Below are positions 48,493-61,226 of a DNA stretch of 61,226 nucleotides, piece after piece. The notes under the pieces were generated by a model. The model was given only the letters and a program-made list of their open reading frames with translations. It was not told where the DNA came from and did no database searches. Origin of the DNA: Thermoanaerobaculia bacterium (GTDB lineage: Bacteria > Acidobacteriota > Thermoanaerobaculia > UBA5066). Location of the stretch: the NCBI GenBank assembly GCA_022071945.1, contig JAJVIN010000031.1, positions 1 through 61,226 on the forward strand, written 5' to 3'. Position 1 is the first letter of the stretch; each line of letters starts with the position of its first letter. Position numbers and translations under genes: made by a program.

Positions 48493-49653
48493 TCAGGGTT
48501 CGATGGCGGTGACGAAGCTGCGCTTGCCCTGGTCGATCTTGACCATGATGGCGTTCTTTTCCGGATCTCCCGAGCCGGGCTTGAACGTCATCTTTCCCGT
48601 GACCCCCTCGAAGAGAGTCAGCCTCGTGAAGGCGTCGTGAATGGCCTCGCGATCCGGAGCGGTCGCCGTTGCGAGAACCTGCTTCAGAAGCATGATCGAG
48701 TCGAAAGTCAGGGCCGCGACGTCGTCCGGCACCTCGCCGCCGTACCGCTTCTTGTAGAGCTCCACGAACGCGGCCACGGACGGGACCTTCTGGTCGGGAG
48801 CGTAGTGCCCCGAGTGGTAGGCACCGTTGATGTCCTCGCCCGCGTTTTTCATCAACGTCGGGTCGCTCCAGTCGTCGCTCCCGAGGAACGGCACGGTGAG
48901 GCCGGCCTTGCGCGCCTGCTTCACCTGTTCGGTCACGTCACTGTAGTAGTTCGGCAGGAACAGAAAGTCCGGCTTCGCCTCCTGGATCTTCGTCAGGTAG
49001 GACGTGAAATCCTTCTCCTCGCGCTTGTACGACTCGAAGTAGACGACCTTCCCGCCGTGCTCCTCGAAGCTCGTCTTGAACCGCTCGGCCTGTTCCCTCG
49101 GGGCCTCGCGCTCCCCGCTGTAGAGGACGGCGGCCGACTGCTTCTTCATGAAGTCCGTCGCGAACTTGCCCAGGATCCTTCCCTGCAAGGAATCCGTGTA
49201 GCACGCTCTGAAGACGTACTTCCTCGGTGCGCCCGACCCATCGAGGCTCACCTTCGGCGCGGTCGCCGAGGGGGTCAGAAGAACCGTCTTGGCGGCCTCG
49301 GCGGCCTCCGCGGCCGCGATGGCGGTGCCGCTGATGTTGGGCCCGATGATGACGAGCGCCTTCTCGGTCTCGATGAGGCGCTTGGCCGCCTCCGTCGCCT
49401 GCTGGCGGTCGCCGCGAGTGTCTTCGATCACGAGGCGGAGGCCGTAGAGCTTCCCGGCGACCTTGACTCCCCCTTCCTCGTCGATGAGAGAGACCGCCAG
49501 TTCCGCGCCCTTCTTGCTCGAGGCGCCGATCACCGGTGTGTCACCGGAGAGCTCCGCGAGAACACCAATCGGAAGATCCATCGTTTTCCGCTGACACGCC
49601 GGCAGGACGAGGCCGAACGCCACGGCCGCGGTGAGAACACTTTTCCATCTCAT
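48493..49653 (-). CDS. Branched-chain amino acid-type ABC substrate-binding lipoprotein
   Basis: 386 aa. The signal peptide ends in the lipobox LVLPAC (Cys 20), so the mature protein is lipid anchored. The type I periplasmic-binding fold (Peripla_BP_6) shows IGVLAELSGDTPVIGASSKKGAELAV, LVIEDTRGDRQQATEAAKRLIE and IGPNISGTAIAAAEAAE. Related proteins bind Leu/Ile/Val, amides or urea; no permease or ATPase genes are adjacent, so it may work with a distant transporter or as a sensor partner. ATG 49653 is preferred as it directly precedes the signal peptide. Confidence 0.9.
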   Translation of the reverse strand: MRWKSVLTAAVAFGLVLPACQRKTMDLPIGVLAELSGDTPVIGASSKKGAELAVSLIDEEGGVKVAGKLYGLRLVIEDTRGDRQQATEAAKRLIETEKALVIIGPNISGTAIAAAEAAEAAKTVLLTPSATAPKVSLDGSGAPRKYVFRACYTDSLQGRILGKFATDFMKKQSAAVLYSGEREAPREQAERFKTSFEEHGGKVVYFESYKREEKDFTSYLTKIQEAKPDFLFLPNYYSDVTEQVKQARKAGLTVPFLGSDDWSDPTLMKNAGEDINGAYHSGHYAPDQKVPSVAAFVELYKKRYGGEVPDDVAALTFDSIMLLKQVLATATAPDREAIHDAFTRLTLFEGVTGKMTFKPGSGDPEKNAIMVKIDQGKRSFVTAIEP

Positions 49654-49690
49654 GAGGAAAAGACTAGGCAGTTTTGTGATCCAGGTCAAT

Positions 49691-50071
49691 TTACCTTCCG
49701 GCGCGAGACTCGGAAATCGCACCTTCTCCCGCCTCGCGGAAGGCTCGGGACACCCCTCCGACTCCCAACTTGACCCCTCCGAACACCCTCGAGACGGCGA
49801 GCCCGCCGAGTAGGTCTTCCTTTTTCAGGAGCTCGAGGAGGATCCGGCCCGGGTGTCCCACCTCGCCGTCATCCTTCGATTTCTCGGTGAACCCGCCGGA
49901 CTCCCCTTTCAACCGCACAGCCCAGCAGTGATGATTCGCCTTGCGGTGCTCGGCTCTCTGGACCTTGAGGATCTCCTCGACGTCCGCTTCGGACTCCGCA
50001 TGGAAGAGCACCGCGAAGAACCGGGAGCGTTCCACCGTGAGCTTGTAACGCGCAAGGACATTGACGGCCAT
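49691..50071 (-). CDS. IMPACT/YigZ N-domain protein (UPF0029)
   Basis: 126 aa, a single UPF0029 domain without the C-terminal DUF1949 found in E. coli YigZ. Family hallmarks are ERSRFFAVLFHAES, HRKANHHCWAVRL, SKDDGEVGHPGRILLELL and VSRVFGGVKLGVGGVSRAFREAG. Homologues are linked to translational control; the bacterial role is not defined. It is divergent from the GDPD gene with only 28 nt between starts. Confidence 0.85.
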   Translation of the reverse strand: MAVNVLARYKLTVERSRFFAVLFHAESEADVEEILKVQRAEHRKANHHCWAVRLKGESGGFTEKSKDDGEVGHPGRILLELLKKEDLLGGLAVSRVFGGVKLGVGGVSRAFREAGEGAISESRAGR

Positions 50072-50099
50072 TGCGGAAGACTACCGCGAGGGTGGCAGA

Positions 50100-50885
50100 A
50101 TGCGGGTCCTGCCGATGAGGTCGTACCCGATCTTCGAAGGACGTCCCCGGCCCCTGGTGATGGCCCACCGCGGGAGCTCCCGGGCAGCCCCGGAAAACAC
50201 TCTCGCCTCCTTCAGGAGGGCCTTCGCCGAGAAGACCGACATCCTCGAAACCGACATCCACGTCACCGCGGATGGCGAGTTCGTGTTGATCCACGACGCC
50301 ACCCTGGAGAGGACGACCGGGGAGGAGGGTCCCGTCTCGGACCGGACGTCGGCGGAGCTGAGGCGGATCCGGGCGAACCGCGGCTTTGGAGGTTTTGCGG
50401 ACGAGACCATCCCGATGCTCGACGATCTCCTCGCGATCCTCCCATCGGACACGGCGCTGGTTCTCGAGCTGAAGTCCGACACCTTTCTCGAGACAGAAGT
50501 CCTCACAAAGCTCTTGGGACTCCTCGAGCGCGCCCGCGTCCTCGACCGGTGCGGCGTGATCTCGTTCTCGGAGGCAAGACTCCGGGCGCTGAAGAGGCAC
50601 TCCCCGGCCATTCCCGCCGGCCTCATCTCGCTCTCGCGAGGCTGGCCGCCCTCCGGCCTCGAGATGACGGGGCCCTTCTGGCCGTTCCTCGTGATGAACC
50701 CCCTTTACGTGCCCATCGCGCACGCCCGGAACATGCTCGTCGCGCCGCTCGATCCCGCTCCCCACTCGAGGCTGTGGCTTTACCGCCTGCTCGGGTGCGA
50801 CGCGGTTCTCACCGACGATCCGGCGGAGACGAGGCGGTTGCTCTTCGGCCGTCAAGGTCGAGGCGATTCCAGAGGCGGAGCGTGA
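50100..50885 (+). CDS. Glycerophosphodiester phosphodiesterase
   Basis: 261 aa. GDPD motifs are VMAHRGSSRAAPENTLASFRRA (HRG and ENT) and ILETDIHVTADGEFVLIHDATLERTT (ExD and HD), with GLISLSRG and AVLTDDPAETRRLL at the end. Hydrolyses deacylated phospholipids to glycerol-3-phosphate and an alcohol. No signal peptide is seen, so it is cytosolic. ATG 50100 follows GCGAGGGTGG. A gap of 88 nt leads to the transporter gene. Confidence 0.92.
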   Translation: MRVLPMRSYPIFEGRPRPLVMAHRGSSRAAPENTLASFRRAFAEKTDILETDIHVTADGEFVLIHDATLERTTGEEGPVSDRTSAELRRIRANRGFGGFADETIPMLDDLLAILPSDTALVLELKSDTFLETEVLTKLLGLLERARVLDRCGVISFSEARLRALKRHSPAIPAGLISLSRGWPPSGLEMTGPFWPFLVMNPLYVPIAHARNMLVAPLDPAPHSRLWLYRLLGCDAVLTDDPAETRRLLFGRQGRGDSRGGA

Positions 50886-50973
50886 CGGAAACCCTGGACG
50901 GCCCGCGCCGTATCCCGAGAGACCCGGCCGCACGTACCGCGCCGGGACCGACCGGCGGAGCCGGGAAGCAGAG

Positions 50974-52281
50974 ATGAAGGGAAGCGGCACAGAGCGGTTC
51001 GGTGCGGTAGCGCCCGGCGAACTCCCGTCGGTCCTCTGGGCCGCGCTCTATTTCTTCTTTCTCCTGGCCGCGTACTACGTCCTTCGTCCGGTTCGTGATC
51101 AATTCGGGGTCGCGGCCGGAGGCCAGAGAACGCTGACGTGGCTCTACATGGGGACCTTGACCGGGACCCTGATCGTCTCGCCCCTCTTCGGCGCGATCGT
51201 GACGCGCTTTTCGCGGCGTGTCTTTCTCCCCGGCCTCTACGTCTTCTTCCTCGCCAACATCCTCGGGTTCTACTGGCTCCTCTCCTCGTCGTCGCCCGAA
51301 ATGCGGTCAGCCACCGCCAAGGGCTTTTTCGTGTGGACGAGCGTCTTCAACCTCCTCGCTGTTTCGGTCTTCTGGGGTTTGATGGCCGATCTCTTCGAGA
51401 GCGACCAGGCCGAGCGGGTCTTCGGACTGATCGGCCTCGGAGGCACCGTCGGGGGAATCTCCGGATCGGCGCTGGCCACGGTCCTCTCGCGCCCCATCGG
51501 CGTCCTCTCGCTCCTGCCGATCTCGGCGGTCCTCCTCGCCCTGTGTCTCGTCTGCCTCTCTCGCCTTCTCGCTTGTACCCCTTCCCGCCCCGCGAGAACC
51601 GTCGATTCCGGCACGCCGCCCGGAACGGGAGCCCTGGCTGGGATGTTCCTGGCTCTGAGGTCGCGCTACCTCCTCGCGATCTGCGGGTTCATGCTCCTGT
51701 ACCCCATCAGCTCGACCCTTCTGTACTTCGAGCAGGCGCGAATCGTGAGAGCTGCCTTCGAATCACCTGCTGCGCGGACCGAGTTCTTTGCCCGGATGGA
51801 CCTCTTCGTCAACATCCTGACTGGCCTCTCTCAGCTCTTTCTGACGGGCCGCCTGCTTCCCGCCCTCGGCTCCGGACCTCTCTTGACTCTGCTGCCCCTC
51901 ATCACGATCGGAGGTTTCGCCGGGCTCGTCATCCGGCCCTCGGCCGCGATGATCGCGTGGGTACAGGTCATTCGCCGCGCCGCCGAGTTCGCCCTCGTCA
52001 AGCCGGCCCGTGAGGTTCTCTTCACGGTCGTCTCCCGCGAGGAGAAGTACTCCTCCAAGGCCTTCATCGACACGTTCGTTTACAGGTCGGGCGACGCTCT
52101 CGGTGCCTGGGCGGAGCCCCTCCTGAAGCTCGTCGGGGCGGCCTCGGTCACGACGGCCGGCGCCTTCCTCCCCCTGGGCGTTTTCTGGCTCTGGCTCTGC
52201 CGCTACCTTGGAAAGAAGGAGAGGGAGCTCGCGGCGGGAGTGCCTCCCAAAACGGACTCCCCCTCCATGGAGAATCGATGA
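50974..52281 (+). CDS. Nucleotide transporter-like membrane protein (Npt/NTT-type MFS)
   Basis: 435 aa with 10-12 hydrophobic helices. It contains the pattern FLLAAYYVLRPVRDQFGVAAG and VRAAFESPAARTEFFARMDLFVNILTG, and RAAEFALVKPAREVLFTVVSREEKYSSKAFIDTFVYRSGDALGA near the end, typical of the AAA/NTT-related MFS group found in free-living Gram-negatives. True NTT proteins exchange ATP/ADP, but these relatives have unknown substrate. GGAAGCAGAG precedes the ATG. Coupled to the first M16 gene by ATGA. Confidence 0.85.
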   Translation: MKGSGTERFGAVAPGELPSVLWAALYFFFLLAAYYVLRPVRDQFGVAAGGQRTLTWLYMGTLTGTLIVSPLFGAIVTRFSRRVFLPGLYVFFLANILGFYWLLSSSSPEMRSATAKGFFVWTSVFNLLAVSVFWGLMADLFESDQAERVFGLIGLGGTVGGISGSALATVLSRPIGVLSLLPISAVLLALCLVCLSRLLACTPSRPARTVDSGTPPGTGALAGMFLALRSRYLLAICGFMLLYPISSTLLYFEQARIVRAAFESPAARTEFFARMDLFVNILTGLSQLFLTGRLLPALGSGPLLTLLPLITIGGFAGLVIRPSAAMIAWVQVIRRAAEFALVKPAREVLFTVVSREEKYSSKAFIDTFVYRSGDALGAWAEPLLKLVGAASVTTAGAFLPLGVFWLWLCRYLGKKERELAAGVPPKTDSPSMENR

Positions 52282-53657
52282 GAAAGACTCGAAACTGGCT
52301 TCTCTTCGGCGTCCTTGCTCTCGCCTTCCTCCTGTCTCCGCGGGCTCTTGCCGCGGACGGCCTCGACGTCCCGTTCGAGATGTTCACGCTGAAGAACGGC
52401 CTGACGGTCATCGTGCACGAGGACCACTCGGCCCCGATCGCGTCGGTCAACGTCTGGTACCACGTCGGCTCGGGACGCGAGACCCCCGGCCGGACGGGCT
52501 TCGCCCACCTCTTCGAGCACATCATGTTCAACGGGTCGAAGAACGTGCCCGAGGGCGCCTACGACCGGTGGCTCGAAGCCGTGGGGGGAAACAACAACGG
52601 TTCGACGACGAACGACCGGACGAACTACTGGATCAACATCCCGTCCAACGCGCTCGAAACCGCTCTCTTCGTCGAGTCCGACAGGATGGCTTACCTCCTC
52701 GACACGATGTCGCTGGCGCGGGTCGACCAGCAGCGCGACGTGGTGAAGAACGAAAGGCGGCAATCGTACGAGAACGCCCCGTACGGGATGGCTCCGATCC
52801 TCCTGACCGAGGCCATGTACCCGAAGGGCCATCCCTACAGCTGGCCCGTCATCGGCTACATGGCCGACCTGACCGCGGCGAGCCACGAGGACGTCTCGAA
52901 CTTCTTCAAGAAGTGGTATGGACCCTCCAACGCCGTCCTCGTGATCGCGGGGGACGTCACCACCGCGGAAGCCCGGAGATTGACCGCGAAGTGGTTCGAC
53001 GAGGTGCCGGCGACGCCGCCCGTGGCTCCTCTCGCGGCACAGCCGGTGCAGCTCCTGTCTGAAAAGCGGCTCCTTCTCGAAGACGACGTCGAGCTCCCGA
53101 GACTCTACATCTCATGGCCCGCACCGCCCGCGATGTCGGCCTCCGCCACGGCGCTCGAGGTTCTGTCCGGCCTCCTCGGAGACGGCAAGAACTCCAGGCT
53201 CCACAAGAAACTCGTGCACGAGCTGCAGATCGCGCAGAGTGTCGAGACCGGAGTCGATGCCGGCGCCCTGGCGTCGACGTTCGACGTCGTCGTCACGGCC
53301 CGCGAGGGACAGAGCCTGGAGAAGATCCGAGCCATCGTCGACGAGGAGATCCGCGCGGTCGCGACGACGGCCCCGCCGGCACGTGAAGTCGCCCGCGTCA
53401 AGAACCAGCTGGAATCGAGGTACCTGTCGCAGCTCGAGCGGATCGGCGGATTTGGCGGGAAGGCCGACCTCCTCAACGAGTACCTCTTCCGAACCGGGAA
53501 TCCGGGCTACTTCAGCCAGCACCTCGCCCTTCTGGGCGCCGTTTCCGGACGCGATCTCGCAACGCTCGCGGCCACGACGCTCGGCCCGGGCCGCGTCCTG
53601 CTCTCGGTCGTGCCCAAGGGCAAGAAGAACCTCGCCGTGCCGGAGGTGACGAAGTGA
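52278..53657 (+). CDS. M16 zinc metallopeptidase, active subunit
   Basis: 459 aa with a Sec signal (WLLFGVLALAFLLSPRALAAD). The inverted zinc motif is HLFEH at residues 77-81 (His 77, Glu 80, His 81), and the distal Glu is in ERRQSYENAPYG. The rest has the usual M16 paired domains. It is followed immediately by a second M16 protein lacking the motif (GTGA coupling), the typical active/inactive heterodimer of periplasmic processing peptidases. Confidence 0.93.
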   Translation: MRKTRNWLLFGVLALAFLLSPRALAADGLDVPFEMFTLKNGLTVIVHEDHSAPIASVNVWYHVGSGRETPGRTGFAHLFEHIMFNGSKNVPEGAYDRWLEAVGGNNNGSTTNDRTNYWINIPSNALETALFVESDRMAYLLDTMSLARVDQQRDVVKNERRQSYENAPYGMAPILLTEAMYPKGHPYSWPVIGYMADLTAASHEDVSNFFKKWYGPSNAVLVIAGDVTTAEARRLTAKWFDEVPATPPVAPLAAQPVQLLSEKRLLLEDDVELPRLYISWPAPPAMSASATALEVLSGLLGDGKNSRLHKKLVHELQIAQSVETGVDAGALASTFDVVVTAREGQSLEKIRAIVDEEIRAVATTAPPAREVARVKNQLESRYLSQLERIGGFGGKADLLNEYLFRTGNPGYFSQHLALLGAVSGRDLATLAATTLGPGRVLLSVVPKGKKNLAVPEVTK

Positions 53658-55123
53658 GAATCAAGGCCACATCCCTTTCGTTCTTTCTCGCGGCGGCGAG
53701 CCTCGCCATGGCGAGCGCCGCCATCGCCGCGGACGCTCCCGACCGGTCGGGACCCCCGAAACCCGCTCCCGCGCGCGCCCTCAAGCTCCCTCCCGTCCAG
53801 AAGTTCACACTAGAGAACGGCCTTGCGGTCTGGATCGTGGAGAACCACGAGGTCCCCATCGCGACGCTCGCCCTGGCCGTCCGATCCGGTGCCACGGCCG
53901 ACCCGGCCGGAAAGAGCGGGCTCGCCGCGATGACGGCCGAAATGCTCGACGAGGGAGCTGGCGGGAAGTCCGCCCTCGAGTTCGACGAGGAAGTTTCTTT
54001 TCTGGGGGCAAGCCTCGACAGCCGCGCCACCTGGGACTATTCCGTCGTCTCGGTCAAGACCCCCGTCAAGGCGCTCCCTCGCGTCTTGCCGCTCTTTGCG
54101 GCGGCCGCAACCAAACCGGACTTTCCACAAAAGGAGTTCGACCGGGTGAAAAAGCAGGCCTTGACCGGCTTTCTGTCGGCCCGCTCCGAGCCCAGGCAGA
54201 TCGCGGCCCACGCCCTTCTCAGGGGTGTCTTCGGAACCGCGCACCGCTACGGCATCCCGGTCGCGGGAACTGCGGCGGCCGTCGCTTCCTTCACCGTCGA
54301 GGACCTCCGCAAGTACCACCGGGAAAACTACCTCCCGAACAACTCGATCCTGATCGCCTCCGGGGATGTGACCTCCGCGGCGCTCCTGCCGGCGCTCTCC
54401 GAGGCGTTCGCCAAGTGGGAAAAGGCGAGCCTGAAACCCGTGGCGGTCCCGCAGCCGAAGGCCCAGAAAGGGCGCAGGGTCCTGATCGTCGACCGGCCCG
54501 GCTCGGCTCAGTCGGTCATCCGGATTGCCCTTACCGGGCCGTCTCGAGAGACCCCGGACTACTTCTCGATCGAGGTTGCCAACACGCTCCTGGGAGGGTC
54601 CTTCACTTCGCGCCTCAACAACAATCTCAGGGAACAGAAGGGCTACACCTATGGCGCGGGGTCGCGCTTCGACATGCGCAAGGCGGGCGGTCTCTTCACG
54701 GCGTTCTCGGACGTGGAAACCGGCGTGACGGGCCCCGCCCTCACGGAGTTCATGAAGGAGCTCGGGAAGATGCTCGAGCCCACGCCGGCCGCCGACGCCG
54801 AGCGGGCCCGGAATTACGCGGCTCTCGGTCTCGGCTTCGAGTTCGAGACCTCCGACGAGATTGCCGCCCATCTCGTCGAGCAGGCGGTGTACGGCTTGCC
54901 TTCCGACTACTTCGACACCTACGTCGCCCGGACACTCTCGGTCGACGGCGCGGCCATCCAGGAGGCGGCGAAAAAGTACCTCGACCTGTCGCGCCTCACG
55001 ATCATCGTCGTCGGCGATCGTGCGAAGATCGAAAAGCCCATTCGCGACCTGAAGCTGGGGGAAACCCAGATAGTTCCGCTTGACACGGTGATGGGTCCCG
55101 TGCCGGTCATCCCGGCCAGCTGA
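53654..55123 (+). CDS. M16 family protein, inactive partner
   Basis: 489 aa, GTG start overlapping the previous stop. A signal peptide (FFLAAASLAMASAAIAADA) indicates export. It has the M16 fold (KFTLENGLAVWIVENHEVPI, TLLGGSFTSRLNNNLREQKGYTYGAGS) but where HxxEH belongs it reads GLAAMTAEMLDEGA, so the zinc site is missing. The R/Y-bearing segment REQKGYTYG that binds substrate is intact. It should pair with the upstream subunit. Confidence 0.93.
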   Translation: MRIKATSLSFFLAAASLAMASAAIAADAPDRSGPPKPAPARALKLPPVQKFTLENGLAVWIVENHEVPIATLALAVRSGATADPAGKSGLAAMTAEMLDEGAGGKSALEFDEEVSFLGASLDSRATWDYSVVSVKTPVKALPRVLPLFAAAATKPDFPQKEFDRVKKQALTGFLSARSEPRQIAAHALLRGVFGTAHRYGIPVAGTAAAVASFTVEDLRKYHRENYLPNNSILIASGDVTSAALLPALSEAFAKWEKASLKPVAVPQPKAQKGRRVLIVDRPGSAQSVIRIALTGPSRETPDYFSIEVANTLLGGSFTSRLNNNLREQKGYTYGAGSRFDMRKAGGLFTAFSDVETGVTGPALTEFMKELGKMLEPTPAADAERARNYAALGLGFEFETSDEIAAHLVEQAVYGLPSDYFDTYVARTLSVDGAAIQEAAKKYLDLSRLTIIVVGDRAKIEKPIRDLKLGETQIVPLDTVMGPVPVIPAS

Positions 55124-56122
<999 letters not shown>

Positions 56123-56129
56123 GACCGGC

Positions 56130-56161
56130 GGCCGGCCGGGGAAGTGAGCCCCCGGCCGGCC
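56130..56161 (+). terminator. Very stable GC hairpin after pip
   Basis: Twelve-base-pair perfect stem (GGCCGGCCGGGG with CCCCGGCCGGCC), loop AAGTGAGC, 7 nt past the pip stop. It has no T tract; probably a 3' barrier or Rho-assisted end. Confidence 0.5.
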
Positions 56162-56263
56162 GGGGCCCGGGAGGGGGTTGCGTCGGGTCAGGCTTCATCT
56201 CCGCCGTTCGCATGTGAGCCCGTGTCGCCTACCATAGCGGCATGACGTCCGACCGGAGGAGAC

Positions 56264-58411
56264 ATGGAAACGCCGGCCCTTGAGAGGTTCGACCTCGTCG
56301 TTCTCGGCTCGGGACCCGCGGGGGAAAAGGGCGCGGCCCAGGCCGCTTACTTCGGCAAGAAGGTCGCCCTCGTGGAAAAGCGGGCCGCTCCCGGGGGCGT
56401 CTCTGTGCACACAGGCACCCTTCCGTCGAAGACGCTGCGAGAAGCGGCTCTCTACATCACCGGTTTCCGCCATCGCGAGCTCTACGGGATGACTTTGCGA
56501 ATCGACCGGGAAAAGAGCCTCCGGCAGCTCGTCGGCCGCCTGCAGGACGTCACGACCCGCCAGGTCCGTCAGATCACGCGCAACATCGAGCGGCACCGGA
56601 TCGAGCGGGTCCTGGGGAGGGGCACGTTCACGGGTCCGAGGGAGATCACTGTCACGGGCGAGGACGGCTCCCCGGTCAGGCGCCTCTCCGCTCCGGTGAT
56701 CCTGATCGCCGTCGGCTCCTCTCCCCTTCCGCCCCGAGGTATCGCTCTGGACGATCCAGATCTGGAGGACTCGGACAGCATCCTCGACCTCGACAGGATC
56801 CCGAAGACCCTCGCGGTCGTGGGAGGCGGAGTGATCGGGTGCGAGTACGCCTCGATCTTCGCCGCGCTGGGCACCGAGGTCACCCTCATCGAGGGCCGCG
56901 AGCGGCTGCTGGGTTTTCTCGACAGCGAGCTCTCGGCCGCCCTGAAGACCGCCCTGGAGAGGATGGGAACCGAGATCTTGCTGGGCGACGCCGTCGAGAC
57001 GGTGACGCGCGCCGAAGAACGAAAGACGAACGCCCTCGAGCTGAGGCTGAAGTCGGGACGGCTCATGGAAGCCGACAAGGTTCTCTTCTCGGCCGGCCGG
57101 AAGGGAAATACGGAGGGTCTCGGGCTCGATCTGGCCGGCGTGGTGACGGATGACAAGGGCCGGATCGTCGTCGACGAGAGCTTCCAGACCTCGGCCAAGG
57201 GCATCTACGCCGCGGGTGACGTAATCGGCTTCCCCTCGCTGGCCGCGACCTCGATGGAACAGGGCCGCGTCGCCATGCGCAAGGCGTTTGGAATCGGAAG
57301 AACCGACGGCTTCGCCCGGGTCTTCCCCTACGGGATCTACACCGTGCCCGAGATCTCGATGATCGGATCGACGGAAGAAGAACTCCGATCGGCCGGAGTT
57401 CCCTACGAGATCGGGCGCGCCCGCTACGAGAACAACGCGAGGGGCCAGATCAACGGGGACATCGACGGGTTCGTCAAGCTCCTGTTCGACCCCGAAAGCA
57501 AACGTCTCCTCGGGGCTCACCTCATCGGCGACGAGGCGACCGAGCTCATCCACGTTCCGCAGATGGTGATGACCCACGGTGGCGGGCTCGAGGACTTCCT
57601 GCAGGCGATCTTCAACGTCCCGACCCTCTCGGAGTGCTTCAAGTACGCCGCCTACGATGGACTGCAGAGACTGGCCCACAAGCATGGAGGCGCCCCGCTG
57701 GAGGCCAGCGAGTCGCACAGGGGCGAGAGGCTCCCGCCCGGGGCGCGGGCGTGGTTCGTCGGGGTGGATCTGACCGATCCGTACGCGCGGGAGCCTCGCC
57801 CGGTGACCGTCGCCTTCATGGACCGCTGGCGGCGCGTGCAGTTCCGAACGTGGACGTTCGACCCTCTCGGAACCGGCCTCCTCCCAGACGAGGTCCTCGC
57901 CGAGGGGTTCGTCCTGGCCATCGACGGCCCCCAGGGCCTGCCGCAGAAAGGTCAGAAGCTCCGACAGGCCGAGAAGCTCCTGAAGGGCTCGGGAAAGACC
58001 GCGTTCGCCCTCCCGAAACTCGAGGTCCCCTACCCGGGATTCGTCCCCGGCAGCGTGGCGCTCTTTTCGGCTCTGCGAGAAAAGGGCCACGGCGTCCTCG
58101 GCGAGGCGGGATACGACGAGACGGTCCTGATCGAGGCCTACCCGGACGACCTCTGGACTCGATGGACCGGACACAAACTCCCGAAGCGGATCTTGCCGAG
58201 CGGCCGCCGTGCTCGATTCGACTGCTTGAGAGGCTTCGGAGTCGAGCTCCCAGCGGGCGAGGACGCCACCACCCACGACCAGCTCGACGCGGCCGCGGCC
58301 GCCTTCGCCGCCTACCTCTGGGCCACGGGGCGGGCACGCGAGATCGGCGTCAAGCCGGAGTTCGATCCGGCGTTCGGCTTCTTGAGGGAGGGAACGATCG
58401 TCACCGTGTGA
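56264..58411 (+). CDS. Soluble pyridine nucleotide transhydrogenase fused to DUF429
   Basis: 715 aa. Residues 1-485 are a SthA-type flavoprotein: FAD motif LVVLGSGPAGEKGAAQA, NAD motif TLAVVGGGVIGCEYASIFAALG, second FAD motif GIYAAGDVIGFPSLA. The redox Cys pair of related reductases is absent (GGVSVHTGTLPSKTL), as in SthA. Residues about 492-715 form a DUF429 RNase H-like domain (FVGVDLTDPYAREPRPVTVAF, VLAIDGPQGLP, LIEAYPDDLWTRW, HDQLDAAAAAFAAYL) with the conserved Asp residues. GGAGGAGAC precedes the ATG. I know of no standard protein with this fusion. Confidence 0.88.
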   Translation: METPALERFDLVVLGSGPAGEKGAAQAAYFGKKVALVEKRAAPGGVSVHTGTLPSKTLREAALYITGFRHRELYGMTLRIDREKSLRQLVGRLQDVTTRQVRQITRNIERHRIERVLGRGTFTGPREITVTGEDGSPVRRLSAPVILIAVGSSPLPPRGIALDDPDLEDSDSILDLDRIPKTLAVVGGGVIGCEYASIFAALGTEVTLIEGRERLLGFLDSELSAALKTALERMGTEILLGDAVETVTRAEERKTNALELRLKSGRLMEADKVLFSAGRKGNTEGLGLDLAGVVTDDKGRIVVDESFQTSAKGIYAAGDVIGFPSLAATSMEQGRVAMRKAFGIGRTDGFARVFPYGIYTVPEISMIGSTEEELRSAGVPYEIGRARYENNARGQINGDIDGFVKLLFDPESKRLLGAHLIGDEATELIHVPQMVMTHGGGLEDFLQAIFNVPTLSECFKYAAYDGLQRLAHKHGGAPLEASESHRGERLPPGARAWFVGVDLTDPYAREPRPVTVAFMDRWRRVQFRTWTFDPLGTGLLPDEVLAEGFVLAIDGPQGLPQKGQKLRQAEKLLKGSGKTAFALPKLEVPYPGFVPGSVALFSALREKGHGVLGEAGYDETVLIEAYPDDLWTRWTGHKLPKRILPSGRRARFDCLRGFGVELPAGEDATTHDQLDAAAAAFAAYLWATGRAREIGVKPEFDPAFGFLREGTIVTV

Positions 58412-58515
58412 CCTGGATCAGACCAGGGCACGCTCGCGCCGTCCTCACGAGCAGCCGCGAGAACACCCGGTGCCGCCAGAGAGGGCCCGAACACCTCTCG
58501 CTGGGCCCCGAGAAA

Positions 58516-60108
58516 CTACGAACCCGGCGAGTGGAGGACCACGTCCGCACCCAGTACTGCCGCGTCGAGCCTCGGCGTCAGTTCCGCGCCCTCCCTGATG
58601 CCGTAAGTCCAGCTGGGGGCGTAGAGGGGCACGAGGGGCAGGTCCTCCAGCGCTCTTCTCATTGCCTGCCGGAGGAACCGCGCCCGGGCATTCGAGTTCA
58701 TCTCCACGGAGGCAGCCTGGATATCGTGGTCGAGTTCGGCGTTCGAGTACCCAGATCGATTCTCCGATCCGAATCCCCCTGGGCCACCCCGGGTGTGGAT
58801 GACGGGCTCGAAGAGTCCGGAGGCATCTCCGGAGATCGTCGACCAGAATCCGAGGACGAGGTGCGCGTTTCCCTTTTCGAGTTCCGTGAGTCTGTCGGGC
58901 CAGGGGCTGTCCCTCACTTCGAGCCGGATTCCGAGGGGGGCGAGCTGCCGGGCGATCTCGTTTCCCGCCAAGAGACTCCGTGACGAGACGAGGAGTCTTG
59001 CCTCGAAACCGGAGGGGAACCCGGCCTCGGCGAGCAGCCGCCGGGCCCGGTCCGGATCAGCCGGCGGTTGCTCCAGTCCCGGATCGAAGCCGTGGATGCC
59101 CGGCATGACGAGTTGCCAGGCGGGAATCGCCTCGTCTCCGAATGCCCGCGCGACGAGTGACGGACGGTCGATCGCGAGAGAGAGCGCTCGCCTCACGCGG
59201 CGATCGGCGAACGGAGAGGGCTTGCCGTTTGACATGGGCTGGAGCCTGCAGATGAGAAACCCGATCGTGACGGTGGGAGACCTCACGGCCCGATACCGGG
59301 CGCTCTCGGATTTCAGCGTCCCGAGTCCGCCGGACGGGAGCGGCGAGATGACTGTCGCTCCGGTCGCAGCCGTTGCCGCCAGCTCCTCATCACCGGCGAC
59401 ACACCGGATCTCCAGTTTCTCGTAGCCCGGCTTCGGGCCCCAGTAATCGTCGAACCGGTTCGCGCGGATATGAGTGAATCCACCTTCTCCACGGGACTGA
59501 GTGGTCCCCTGCATCACGAAGGGTCCGGTTCCGACCGGCTTGGTGATCTCGGCATCGTTGGTGTATCTGGAGAGGATCGGCGCCGTGGCGAGCCTGGCCA
59601 GTAGGAGCGGACGCGGCCGGTCCGTCACGAACTCGACCGTCAGGGGGTCCACCGTGCGGACTTCGATGATCGCGCGGACATCGGGTTCCACGCACGAGCG
59701 GTCGATCCGCTTTGCCCGTTCGATCGTGTGCCTGACGTCTTCCGCGGTCAGGGTGTGTCCATCGTGAAAGCGCACCCCTGGCCTGAGGCGGAAACGCCAG
59801 ACCGTCTCGGAGGGATTGCTCCAGTCCGTGGCGAGCCTCGGCCGGATCGCGAGGTTTCGGTCCAGTTCGACCAGGCCCTCGAAGAAATTCGCGAGGATGG
59901 CCCGCGTCTGGTCCTCGGAGTGCCTCTGCGGATCGAGAGTCAATGCGGGAGACGCGAAGACGAGACTCACCGAGGCCGCGGGAGTCGGCTGTTTCGGCTT
60001 ACCGCAGGCCGCCGCGACGAGCAAGAAGAGGAGCGCACACCCGTATCGCGCCGGGGAGGCGCCGGCGCTTCTCTGGCTTCGCCAGTACATCCAGCCTGTT
60101 CGAGTCAT
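58516..60108 (-). CDS. Peptide-type ABC substrate-binding lipoprotein (SBP family 5)
   Basis: 530 aa. Lipobox LLVAAAC (about Cys 35) after a long basic n-region places it in the membrane as a lipoprotein. Family 5 motifs are RLATDWSNPSETVWRFRLRPGVRFHDGHTLTAEDV and RRALSLAIDRPSLVARAFG, with AEAGFPSGFEARLLVS. No permease genes are nearby. AGAGGGCTGCAG precedes ATG 60108. It is divergent from the EFR1-like gene. Related in fold to the SBP part of the chemoreceptor fusion at 9.2-12.4 kb. Confidence 0.92.
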   Translation of the reverse strand: MTRTGWMYWRSQRSAGASPARYGCALLFLLVAAACGKPKQPTPAASVSLVFASPALTLDPQRHSEDQTRAILANFFEGLVELDRNLAIRPRLATDWSNPSETVWRFRLRPGVRFHDGHTLTAEDVRHTIERAKRIDRSCVEPDVRAIIEVRTVDPLTVEFVTDRPRPLLLARLATAPILSRYTNDAEITKPVGTGPFVMQGTTQSRGEGGFTHIRANRFDDYWGPKPGYEKLEIRCVAGDEELAATAATGATVISPLPSGGLGTLKSESARYRAVRSPTVTIGFLICRLQPMSNGKPSPFADRRVRRALSLAIDRPSLVARAFGDEAIPAWQLVMPGIHGFDPGLEQPPADPDRARRLLAEAGFPSGFEARLLVSSRSLLAGNEIARQLAPLGIRLEVRDSPWPDRLTELEKGNAHLVLGFWSTISGDASGLFEPVIHTRGGPGGFGSENRSGYSNAELDHDIQAASVEMNSNARARFLRQAMRRALEDLPLVPLYAPSWTYGIREGAELTPRLDAAVLGADVVLHSPGS

Positions 60109-60281
60109 CTGCAGCCCTCTCTCCGGGCGAGACGTGACCTTCGGGAGCCGCCCAGGAGTTCGACCGGTCGCAGTCGTGTCAGGCAGATTCTTGCACGGGT
60201 GGCCCTCGAGGCCTTCGTGGCGACGCGGGATGTTCCCGACCGGCGCGGTGGCGTGGACGTGAGGCGCCAAAGCCTGGAGAC

Positions 60282-61160
60282 GTGGCGGTGACGAAGGTGG
60301 AACGGCAGGCGCGTATCTTCTACTTCTCCGGGACGGGCAACGCCGCCCACATGGCCCAGTGCGTGGCCGGCACGATGCAGGAGGCGGGTGTGACCGCCGC
60401 GACGGTGAACATTGCCGGCTTGGACCGGCGCGCTCTCGCGGCGCCAGAGCCTGACGTCCTCCTCGGCTTCATCTCTCCCACTCACGGGTTCAACTTCCCG
60501 CCGGTCATGCTGTCCTTCCTTCTCGCCTTCCCGCGAACTCTCCACCGCAACCGGGTCTTCCTGATGAACACTCGTGCCGGGATGAAGCTGGGCAGGGTGT
60601 TCCTGCCAGGGCTCAGCGGAGCAGCGCTGCTCCTGGCCGCTGTCATCCTGATGGCCAAGGGCTACAGGATCGCGGGCATGCGGCCGATCGACATGCCGTC
60701 GAACTGGCTGTCGCTTCACCCGAGCTTGAGGCCAAAGGCAGTCGTGGCGATCACCAGGCGATGCGAGGCCGTGGCGAGACGCTTCGCGACGCGCCTGATC
60801 TCGGGTGGTACCGATTTCCGAGCGCTGTTGGATCTTCCCCAGGACCTTCTCATCGCACCCGTGAGCGTTCTCTATTTCCTCGCCGGGCGGTTCGTCTTCG
60901 CGAAGTCGTTCTACGCCAGCACGGCGTGCAACAACTGTGGCGCCTGCAAGGCTCACTGTCCCGTCAAGGCCATCGTGACGGTGCGGAACCGCCCGTTCTG
61001 GACGTTCTCCTGCGAGAGCTGCATGCGATGCATGAACGAGTGTCCGGCACGGGCCATCGAAACGGGTCACGGCTACGTCGCCGGCCTCATCTTCGTGGTG
61101 TCTTCAACGCTCGCCAGAAGTGATCCACGTGTGCTCGTGAGAAGTGATCCACCCGTGTAG
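60282..61160 (+). CDS. EFR1-type flavodoxin-ferredoxin, 3' end altered
   Basis: 292 aa from a GTG start. The flavodoxin part carries RIFYFSGTGNAAHMAQCVAG and the EFR1 family double cluster near the C-terminus: CNNCGACKAHCP and CESCMRCMNECP. Members are predicted electron-transfer proteins. After GHGYVAGLIFVVSSTLA the expected hydrophobic tail is replaced by RSDPRVLVRSDPPV, encoded by a 13-bp repeated AGAAGTGATCCAC (61116-61128 and 61140-61152). The sequence after 61111 therefore looks like the terminus of an insertion sequence and the native stop is lost. Confidence 0.82.
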   Translation: MAVTKVERQARIFYFSGTGNAAHMAQCVAGTMQEAGVTAATVNIAGLDRRALAAPEPDVLLGFISPTHGFNFPPVMLSFLLAFPRTLHRNRVFLMNTRAGMKLGRVFLPGLSGAALLLAAVILMAKGYRIAGMRPIDMPSNWLSLHPSLRPKAVVAITRRCEAVARRFATRLISGGTDFRALLDLPQDLLIAPVSVLYFLAGRFVFAKSFYASTACNNCGACKAHCPVKAIVTVRNRPFWTFSCESCMRCMNECPARAIETGHGYVAGLIFVVSSTLARSDPRVLVRSDPPV

Positions 61161-61226
61161 AGAGGGTTCTGATCAGCATCATCCGCCGAAGGCGCCTGAG
61201 GCGGGTCGACAGGACGGCCAGGGAAT
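61116..61226. mobile_element. IS21-like element terminus (partial)
   Basis: Two copies of AGAAGTGATCCAC spaced 24 bp apart and reading GTGGATCACTTCT on the minus strand resemble the multiple terminal repeats of IS21-family elements, whose ends bind IstA. The remaining 74 bp to the window edge contain no intact gene. The insertion likely interrupts the preceding EFR1-like gene. Confidence 0.5.

Follow-up and report, generated by a model that had tools for sequence, protein, structure and literature searches.

A SthA-like flavoprotein joined in frame to a DUF429 domain in one family of Acidobacteriota

A single open reading frame on the forward strand, at positions 56264 to 58411 of the window (the whole 61,226-nucleotide stretch of DNA analyzed, from a Thermoanaerobaculia bacterium), runs for 715 codons without an internal stop and has an ATG start preceded by GGAGGAG. 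The 715-amino-acid protein that it encodes matches Pyr_redox_2 (E 1.9e-54), Pyr_redox_dim (E 7.8e-27), and DUF429 (E 6.2e-11) together in Pfam; no RelA/SpoT family is among its 12 Pfam matches. The DUF429 match (PF04250) covers residues 550 to 695 with 42.9 bits against a gathering cut-off of 23, and the NCBIfam SthA equivalog NF003585 (Si-specific NAD(P)+ transhydrogenase) covers residues 8 to 471 with 547.4 bits against a cut-off of 465. Over residues 6 to 470 the protein is homologous to the solved SthA structure 9n4y (E 5.2e-99). The features of the gene are as follows.

56264..57673, + strand: SthA-like FAD/NAD(P) flavoprotein module, residues 1-470, with GSGPAG, GGGVIG, and a dimerisation domain (Pfam, NCBIfam, and alignment to 9n4y, residues 6-470)
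56402..56419, + strand: S47-XXXX-T52, where soluble transhydrogenases have CXXXXT (alignment; motif as defined in the accessible part of PMC9460512)
57617..57634, + strand: V452-XXXX-E457, where the terminal YXXXXE is expected (alignment; motif definition from the same source)
57674..57742, + strand: variable linker without an in-frame ATG, GTG, or TTG (comparison of fused copies, codon reading)
57743..58408, + strand: DUF429 domain, predicted RNase H-like, residues 494-715, followed by the stop codon at 58409-58411 (PF04250, alignment, model)
57767..57769, + strand: codon of D502, the first-strand Asp (D in 33 of 35 unfused DUF429 rows, with 2 gaps, and in 5 of 6 fused copies)
57923..57925, + strand: codon of D554, the fourth-strand Asp (D in 34 of 35 unfused rows and 6 of 6 fused copies)
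58133..58135, + strand: codon of E624 (E in 35 of 35 unfused rows and 6 of 6 fused copies)
58286..58288, + strand: codon of D675, the Asp of the C-terminal helix (D in 35 of 35 unfused rows and 6 of 6 fused copies)

The search for other fused proteins that had been suggested in the sequence-only reading of this DNA returned five further copies, all in Acidobacteriota of the same family. All of them have the same in-frame join, in which 27 to 31 residues separate YDGLQR, where the flavoprotein ends, from WF[VL]G, in the first DUF429 strand (27 residues, to WFVG, in the window copy). All six copies pass the Pfam DUF429 cut-off (24.3 to 54.9 bits), and the DUF429 parts of the five relatives are 56 to 65% identical to that of the window copy; the copy of genome G006 is truncated at a contig start. 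With a single frame, both domains above curated cut-offs, and six genomes, the proposed SthA-like/DUF429 fusion is borne out as one protein, and a frameshift or lost stop codon at 57720 to 57740 dividing two genes, which had been raised as a possible refutation, is ruled out by the same in-frame join in the five other genomes. Although the five relatives are metagenome-assembled genomes, the source genome is a 69-contig draft, and no isolate is among the carriers, we reject with near certainty an assembly or sequencing artefact that joined two genes, because six assemblies share the join, in frame and in one position, with DUF429 parts that were 57 to 64% identical to that of the window copy in a separate comparison. 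We also considered that DUF429 might be translated on its own from a start within the gene, and reject this for the window copy and that of G005, whose linkers hold no in-frame ATG, GTG, or TTG; the first in-frame start codon after the linker of the window copy is a GTG within the first DUF429 strand. The linkers of G002, G003, G006, and G013 contain one or two in-frame start codons each, and in these four copies such translation may occur.

The fused domain was found in 6 of the 19 genomes of the order, all 6 inside one 14-genome family, and was not found in the 8 other family genomes searched, which are drafts. A search of 60 whole genomes with the DUF429 part matched six, including the source genome, all of the same family and with a single strong match apiece, in frames of 660 to 1096 residues. 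Across 396 genomes of the phylum, where the best seven candidates were scored in most genomes and weak matches may therefore have been missed (as in the SthA-like search, with the best 11 per genome), at least 11 genomes matched the DUF429 part. Three of these matches are fused copies (the source genome G000, G002, and G005), G005 having two unfused DUF429 genes besides; among the matches listed, the other eight are weak (E 3.0e-5 to 8.6e-4, frames of 209 to 411 residues). Other DUF429 matches in long frames (L049, L068, L073, and L086) contain DUF429 alone in Pfam. At L049:592-1824, a 411-residue frame carries DUF429 in the C-terminal half and matches nothing else in Pfam; it is either long by chance or an example of a different architecture. 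Beyond Acidobacteriota, coverage consisted of a contig scan and plasmid searches. The scan, by exact matching of species genome contigs to two short peptide patterns, hit 210 stretches, 5 of which encode relatives, the same five as above. Against plasmids, the DUF429 half gave no tblastn match at E <= 0.01, and no record reached 80% coverage among the best 5000 matches to the full protein; a search of viral contigs with the stand-alone DUF429 relative L085, in place of the fused domain, gave no confirmed relative.

Unfused relatives of the flavoprotein terminate at the fusion point. The frame extends 394 to 417 residues beyond the PSK motif stretch in 24 homologs without the fusion (L021-L044), against 645 to 647 residues in the fused copies, and the closest unfused homologs among the matches listed (about 50% identical) stop a few to about 20 residues past a shared ...YKYAAYDGLG. 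In a flavoprotein tree of 33 rows, the six fused copies form one branch (support 100/100). Adjoining this branch (90/89) are 13 family f7 rows, all unfused, and L025, which has a long branch; a separate group (100/99) comprises L035-L038, L094, and L095, an annotated sthA. The DUF429 halves of the fused copies likewise form one clade (support 0.979, 41 rows) and are 19 to 31% identical to 35 unfused DUF429 rows. For this sample, the simplest reading of the trees and frame ends would be one fusion event in which a C-terminal DUF429 was added to a SthA-like flavoprotein. A search for adjacent unfused pairs, also suggested earlier, found none: a SthA-like match (E <= 1e-90) co-occurred with an unfused DUF429 in 11 of 147 class genomes, and in 0 of the 11 were the two on one contig among the matches listed. 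There is thus no sign of an earlier functional pairing, a weak argument given that these genomes are drafts.

Selection was gauged from dN divided by dS in the 15 pairs among the six fused copies. Pairwise dN/dS was 0.18 to 0.35 for the SthA part (residues 59 to 470), 0.26 to 0.54 for the DUF429 part (residues 494 to 715), and 0.31 to 1.44 for the linker, a noisy range from 23 to 24 codons. The dN of the DUF429 part exceeded that of the SthA part in all 15 pairs. Judged by these ratios, both domains are under purifying selection and look used, DUF429 being constrained, though less tightly than the flavoprotein.

The flavoprotein half departs from the transhydrogenases in both of the motifs by which, according to the accessible part of PMC9460512, the soluble enzymes are marked (CXXXXT and a terminal YXXXXE). 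Aligned to 9n4y, the window protein has S47 in place of the Cys and V452 in place of the Tyr; with S47-XXXX-T52, it also has no redox disulfide CXXXXC. The first position of CXXXXT is S in four and T in one of the five fused copies that cover the region, and that of YXXXXE is V in four and F in two of the six. The 13 unfused f7 rows keep the Cys in 11 cases and already have F for the Tyr in 11, and the fused clade lies apart from the standard-motif rows in the 33-row tree. The NF003585 model is broad, since all six unfused homologs tested from other subclades pass it too. The "transhydrogenase" label of the sequence-only reading is accordingly supported by a score over the NCBI SthA cut-off but weakened by the changed hallmarks and the separate clade; with both motifs altered and the clade apart, transhydrogenase activity cannot be assumed. 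We call the protein SthA-like, its transhydrogenase activity being uncertain from the sequence. The accessible text of PMC9460512 mentions an SXXXXT transhydrogenase of Streptomyces avermitilis, describes Escherichia coli SthA as an octamer, and reports that in the E. coli C45A variant transhydrogenation was reduced and 37% of the hydride went to peroxide. By analogy with C45A, S47 would predict poor coupling, and an oxidase-leaning activity of the flavoprotein half is possible. The source genome has a second, unfused SthA-like gene (G000:C4:23041-24402, L093), over the NCBIfam SthA cut-off, in which RXXXXT replaces CXXXXT; the seven RXXXXT rows form one clade in the flavoprotein tree.

Comparison of open reading frames gave no gene neighbor common to all six loci. 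A homologous gene lies downstream in four of the five related loci (L011:7116-8519, L012:5207-6682, L013:7061-8452, and L014:2499-3929), the L011 copy matching DUF4147 and MOFRL in Pfam; we take this gene to be glycerate kinase-like. No homolog of it was found in L010 or in the window from 49000 to 61226. M16 peptidase genes lie near the fused gene (window 53654-55123), with homologous frames next to the fused copy on the opposite strand at L010:6662-9655, and a flavodoxin-like and 4Fe-4S protein is encoded close to the window end (60282-61160). The membrane transhydrogenase PntB (PF02233) was matched in one of the six family genomes with the fusion and three of the eight without it, too few for a conclusion on complementarity; the source genome gave no PntB match. 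The sole PntB-positive genome among the six is G006, which also holds the copy without D502. A defense role is without support, as there was no match to PADLOC-DB at E <= 0.01. Replacement of a housekeeping enzyme was considered too, and a stand-in for RNase HI or HII is unlikely because the source genome has matches to both families.

The four acidic residues of the DUF429 half, D502, D554, E624, and D675, recur in 33, 34, 35, and 35 of the 35 unfused rows, respectively, and in 5, 6, 6, and 6 of the 6 fused copies. The exception among the latter is G006 (L012:1303-1980), with A for D502 and with NL for the YP that follows E624 in the other five. The conserved Asp residues of an RNase H-like active site, remarked on in the sequence-only reading, are therefore kept in the window copy, but the first-strand Asp is lost in one of six copies; constraint on catalysis does not extend to all members, and the G006 sequence suggests that it may be dispensable in some lineages. 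As described in the accessible part of PMC3985635, DUF429 belongs to the RNase H-like superfamily, in a clade with RuvC, Tex, and Spt6, and has potential active-site residues in strands 1 and 4.

A model of the DUF429 domain (mean pLDDT 64.4, pTM 0.72) has the RNase H-like order of strands and helices, with low-confidence stretches between the core elements; the AlphaFold model of the whole protein was of too low a quality for use (mean pLDDT 50.3, pTM 0.34). Among the best 1000 Foldseek chains, the best structural match of the domain model was RuvC (Z 9.1, rmsd 3.5, 138 aligned), to be read against the comparison tool's own warning that a best Z of 7 to 8 is common. Below it came the IS110-type recombinases ISCro4 and IS621, MOC1, Spt6, and Tex and, further down, actin-like kinases and Hsp70 (Z 6.5 to 7.8). 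Foldseek itself gave no match at E <= 0.001 with the domain model (best E 0.044), and a sequence profile built from the six DUF429 parts gave nothing significant among solved structures (best E 0.14). The leading entries of the structure list agree with the published placement of DUF429 in the RuvC/Tex/Spt6 clade. An RNase H-like fold is predicted, mainly from family membership and to a moderate degree from the model.

In the literature covered, where the sources were available in part, one DUF429 has been tested. This is the domain of Mycobacterium smegmatis MSMEG_5849 (RelZ), with RNase HII activity (PMC4429107); RelZ, a hexameric protein in which DUF429 is fused to a (p)ppGpp synthetase, cleaves RNA:DNA hybrids and R-loops (PMC7591505, PMC4429107). 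Its domains were reported inactive once separated (PMC7591505), and by analogy an assay of the isolated DUF429 domain of the present protein could mislead. Most DUF429 proteins are said in the accessible part of PMC3985635 to be single-domain, the exceptions being fusions to Nudix and RelA/SpoT, and that of PMC3153485 adds phosphomethylpyrimidine kinase as a partner. The kind of fusion is therefore not new. A SthA-DUF429 fusion was not met in literature titles and abstract openings, where subscription journals are thinly covered. The joined form, described in the sequence-only reading as unusual, appears so in its SthA-like partner but is not so in joining DUF429 to a nucleotide enzyme. It is a lineage-specific new architecture made of known domains.

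Our preferred reading, which we put forward tentatively as something less than probable, is that of a two-domain protein from a single fusion, in which DUF429 would act as a metal-dependent nuclease and the flavoprotein as an oligomeric platform with an FAD/NAD(P)H response. A C-terminal DUF429 would have been joined once to a SthA-like flavoprotein in one Acidobacteriota family. From family precedent and residue conservation, we infer nuclease activity for the DUF429 half, which would be of the RuvC/RNase H type and act on structured nucleic acids, RNA:DNA hybrids for example. The flavoprotein half, from an oligomer-forming family, would be the scaffold and possibly, by analogy with RelZ, a redox sensor.

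The main alternative, unlikely but deserving of weight, is that DUF429 here has no catalytic role but binds nucleic acid or nucleotides and so serves to tether or regulate the flavoprotein. Such a role would suit the G006 copy, which stays in frame despite the loss of the first-strand Asp, the higher dN of the DUF429 part in every pair, and the presence of actin-like kinases and Hsp70 among the best 1000 Foldseek chains. It is opposed by the retention of D554, E624, and D675 in all six copies and of D502 in five, in the columns conserved in unfused DUF429 as well, a pattern expected if the chemistry is retained.

We think it rather unlikely that the fusion involves no coupling, the two domains working independently on a tolerated linker as an accident of the lineage. 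A linker that varies in length and sequence, a single origin, and the lack of a shared contig for the unfused genes in the 11 class genomes (drafts and listed matches only, hence weak) are in keeping with such an accident, against which stand the retention of the fusion in six divergent genomes and the purifying selection on both parts.

A stronger form of the preferred nuclease-on-a-flavoprotein reading, a redox-gated nuclease, appears improbable: the FAD/NAD(P)H or assembly state of the flavoprotein would switch the RuvC/RNase H-like domain, and R-loops or RNA:DNA structures would be cleared upon a shift in NAD(P)H balance, in the manner of RelZ, in which R-loop removal is linked with alarmone synthesis. 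Gating by redox state is conjecture; if true, it would give a direct link from cofactor balance to nucleic acid processing. The tie between NADPH/NADH balance and a nuclease suggested in the sequence-only reading is an inference. Still harder to credit is a DUF429 half whose substrate would be, in place of long nucleic acid, a small nucleotide or nucleotide-capped RNA linked to NAD(P)(H), with the flavoprotein recycling or sensing the same cofactor. The published DUF429 partners, as far as the accessible text of PMC3153485 and PMC3985635 goes, are nucleotide enzymes, and the partner here is a pyridine nucleotide enzyme, but the one DUF429 tested in the literature covered cleaves RNA:DNA hybrids. 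For a domain that occurs in bacteria and archaea and has one tested example in that literature, a conserved fusion whose expected FAD would be spectroscopically readable offers a handle on DUF429 function and on its control by an attached domain.

Among known systems, the protein resembles SthA/UdhA (9n4y) in its homology over residues 6 to 470, its lack of a redox-active disulfide pair, and its score over the NF003585 cut-off, and it differs in SXXXXT, VXXXXE, a clade of its own, and the extra C-terminal DUF429. Like stand-alone DUF429 proteins (PF04250; COG2410, COG4328, COG4923), the second half has a Pfam match over the cut-off and the same acidic columns, whereas it is only 19 to 31% identical to them (35 rows) and is joined to a flavoprotein. 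The DUF429 model resembles the Holliday junction resolvases RuvC and MOC1 in its predicted fold (best Z 9.1), with 10 to 16% identity among the matches listed. RelZ (MS_RHII-RSD, MSMEG_5849) has reported RNase HII activity, whereas the present fusion is known from sequence alone. In both, DUF429 is fused to a nucleotide-handling enzyme and is patchily distributed among related species; in RelZ, however, DUF429 is N-terminal and its partner a (p)ppGpp synthetase, and here it is C-terminal and its partner a SthA-like flavoprotein.
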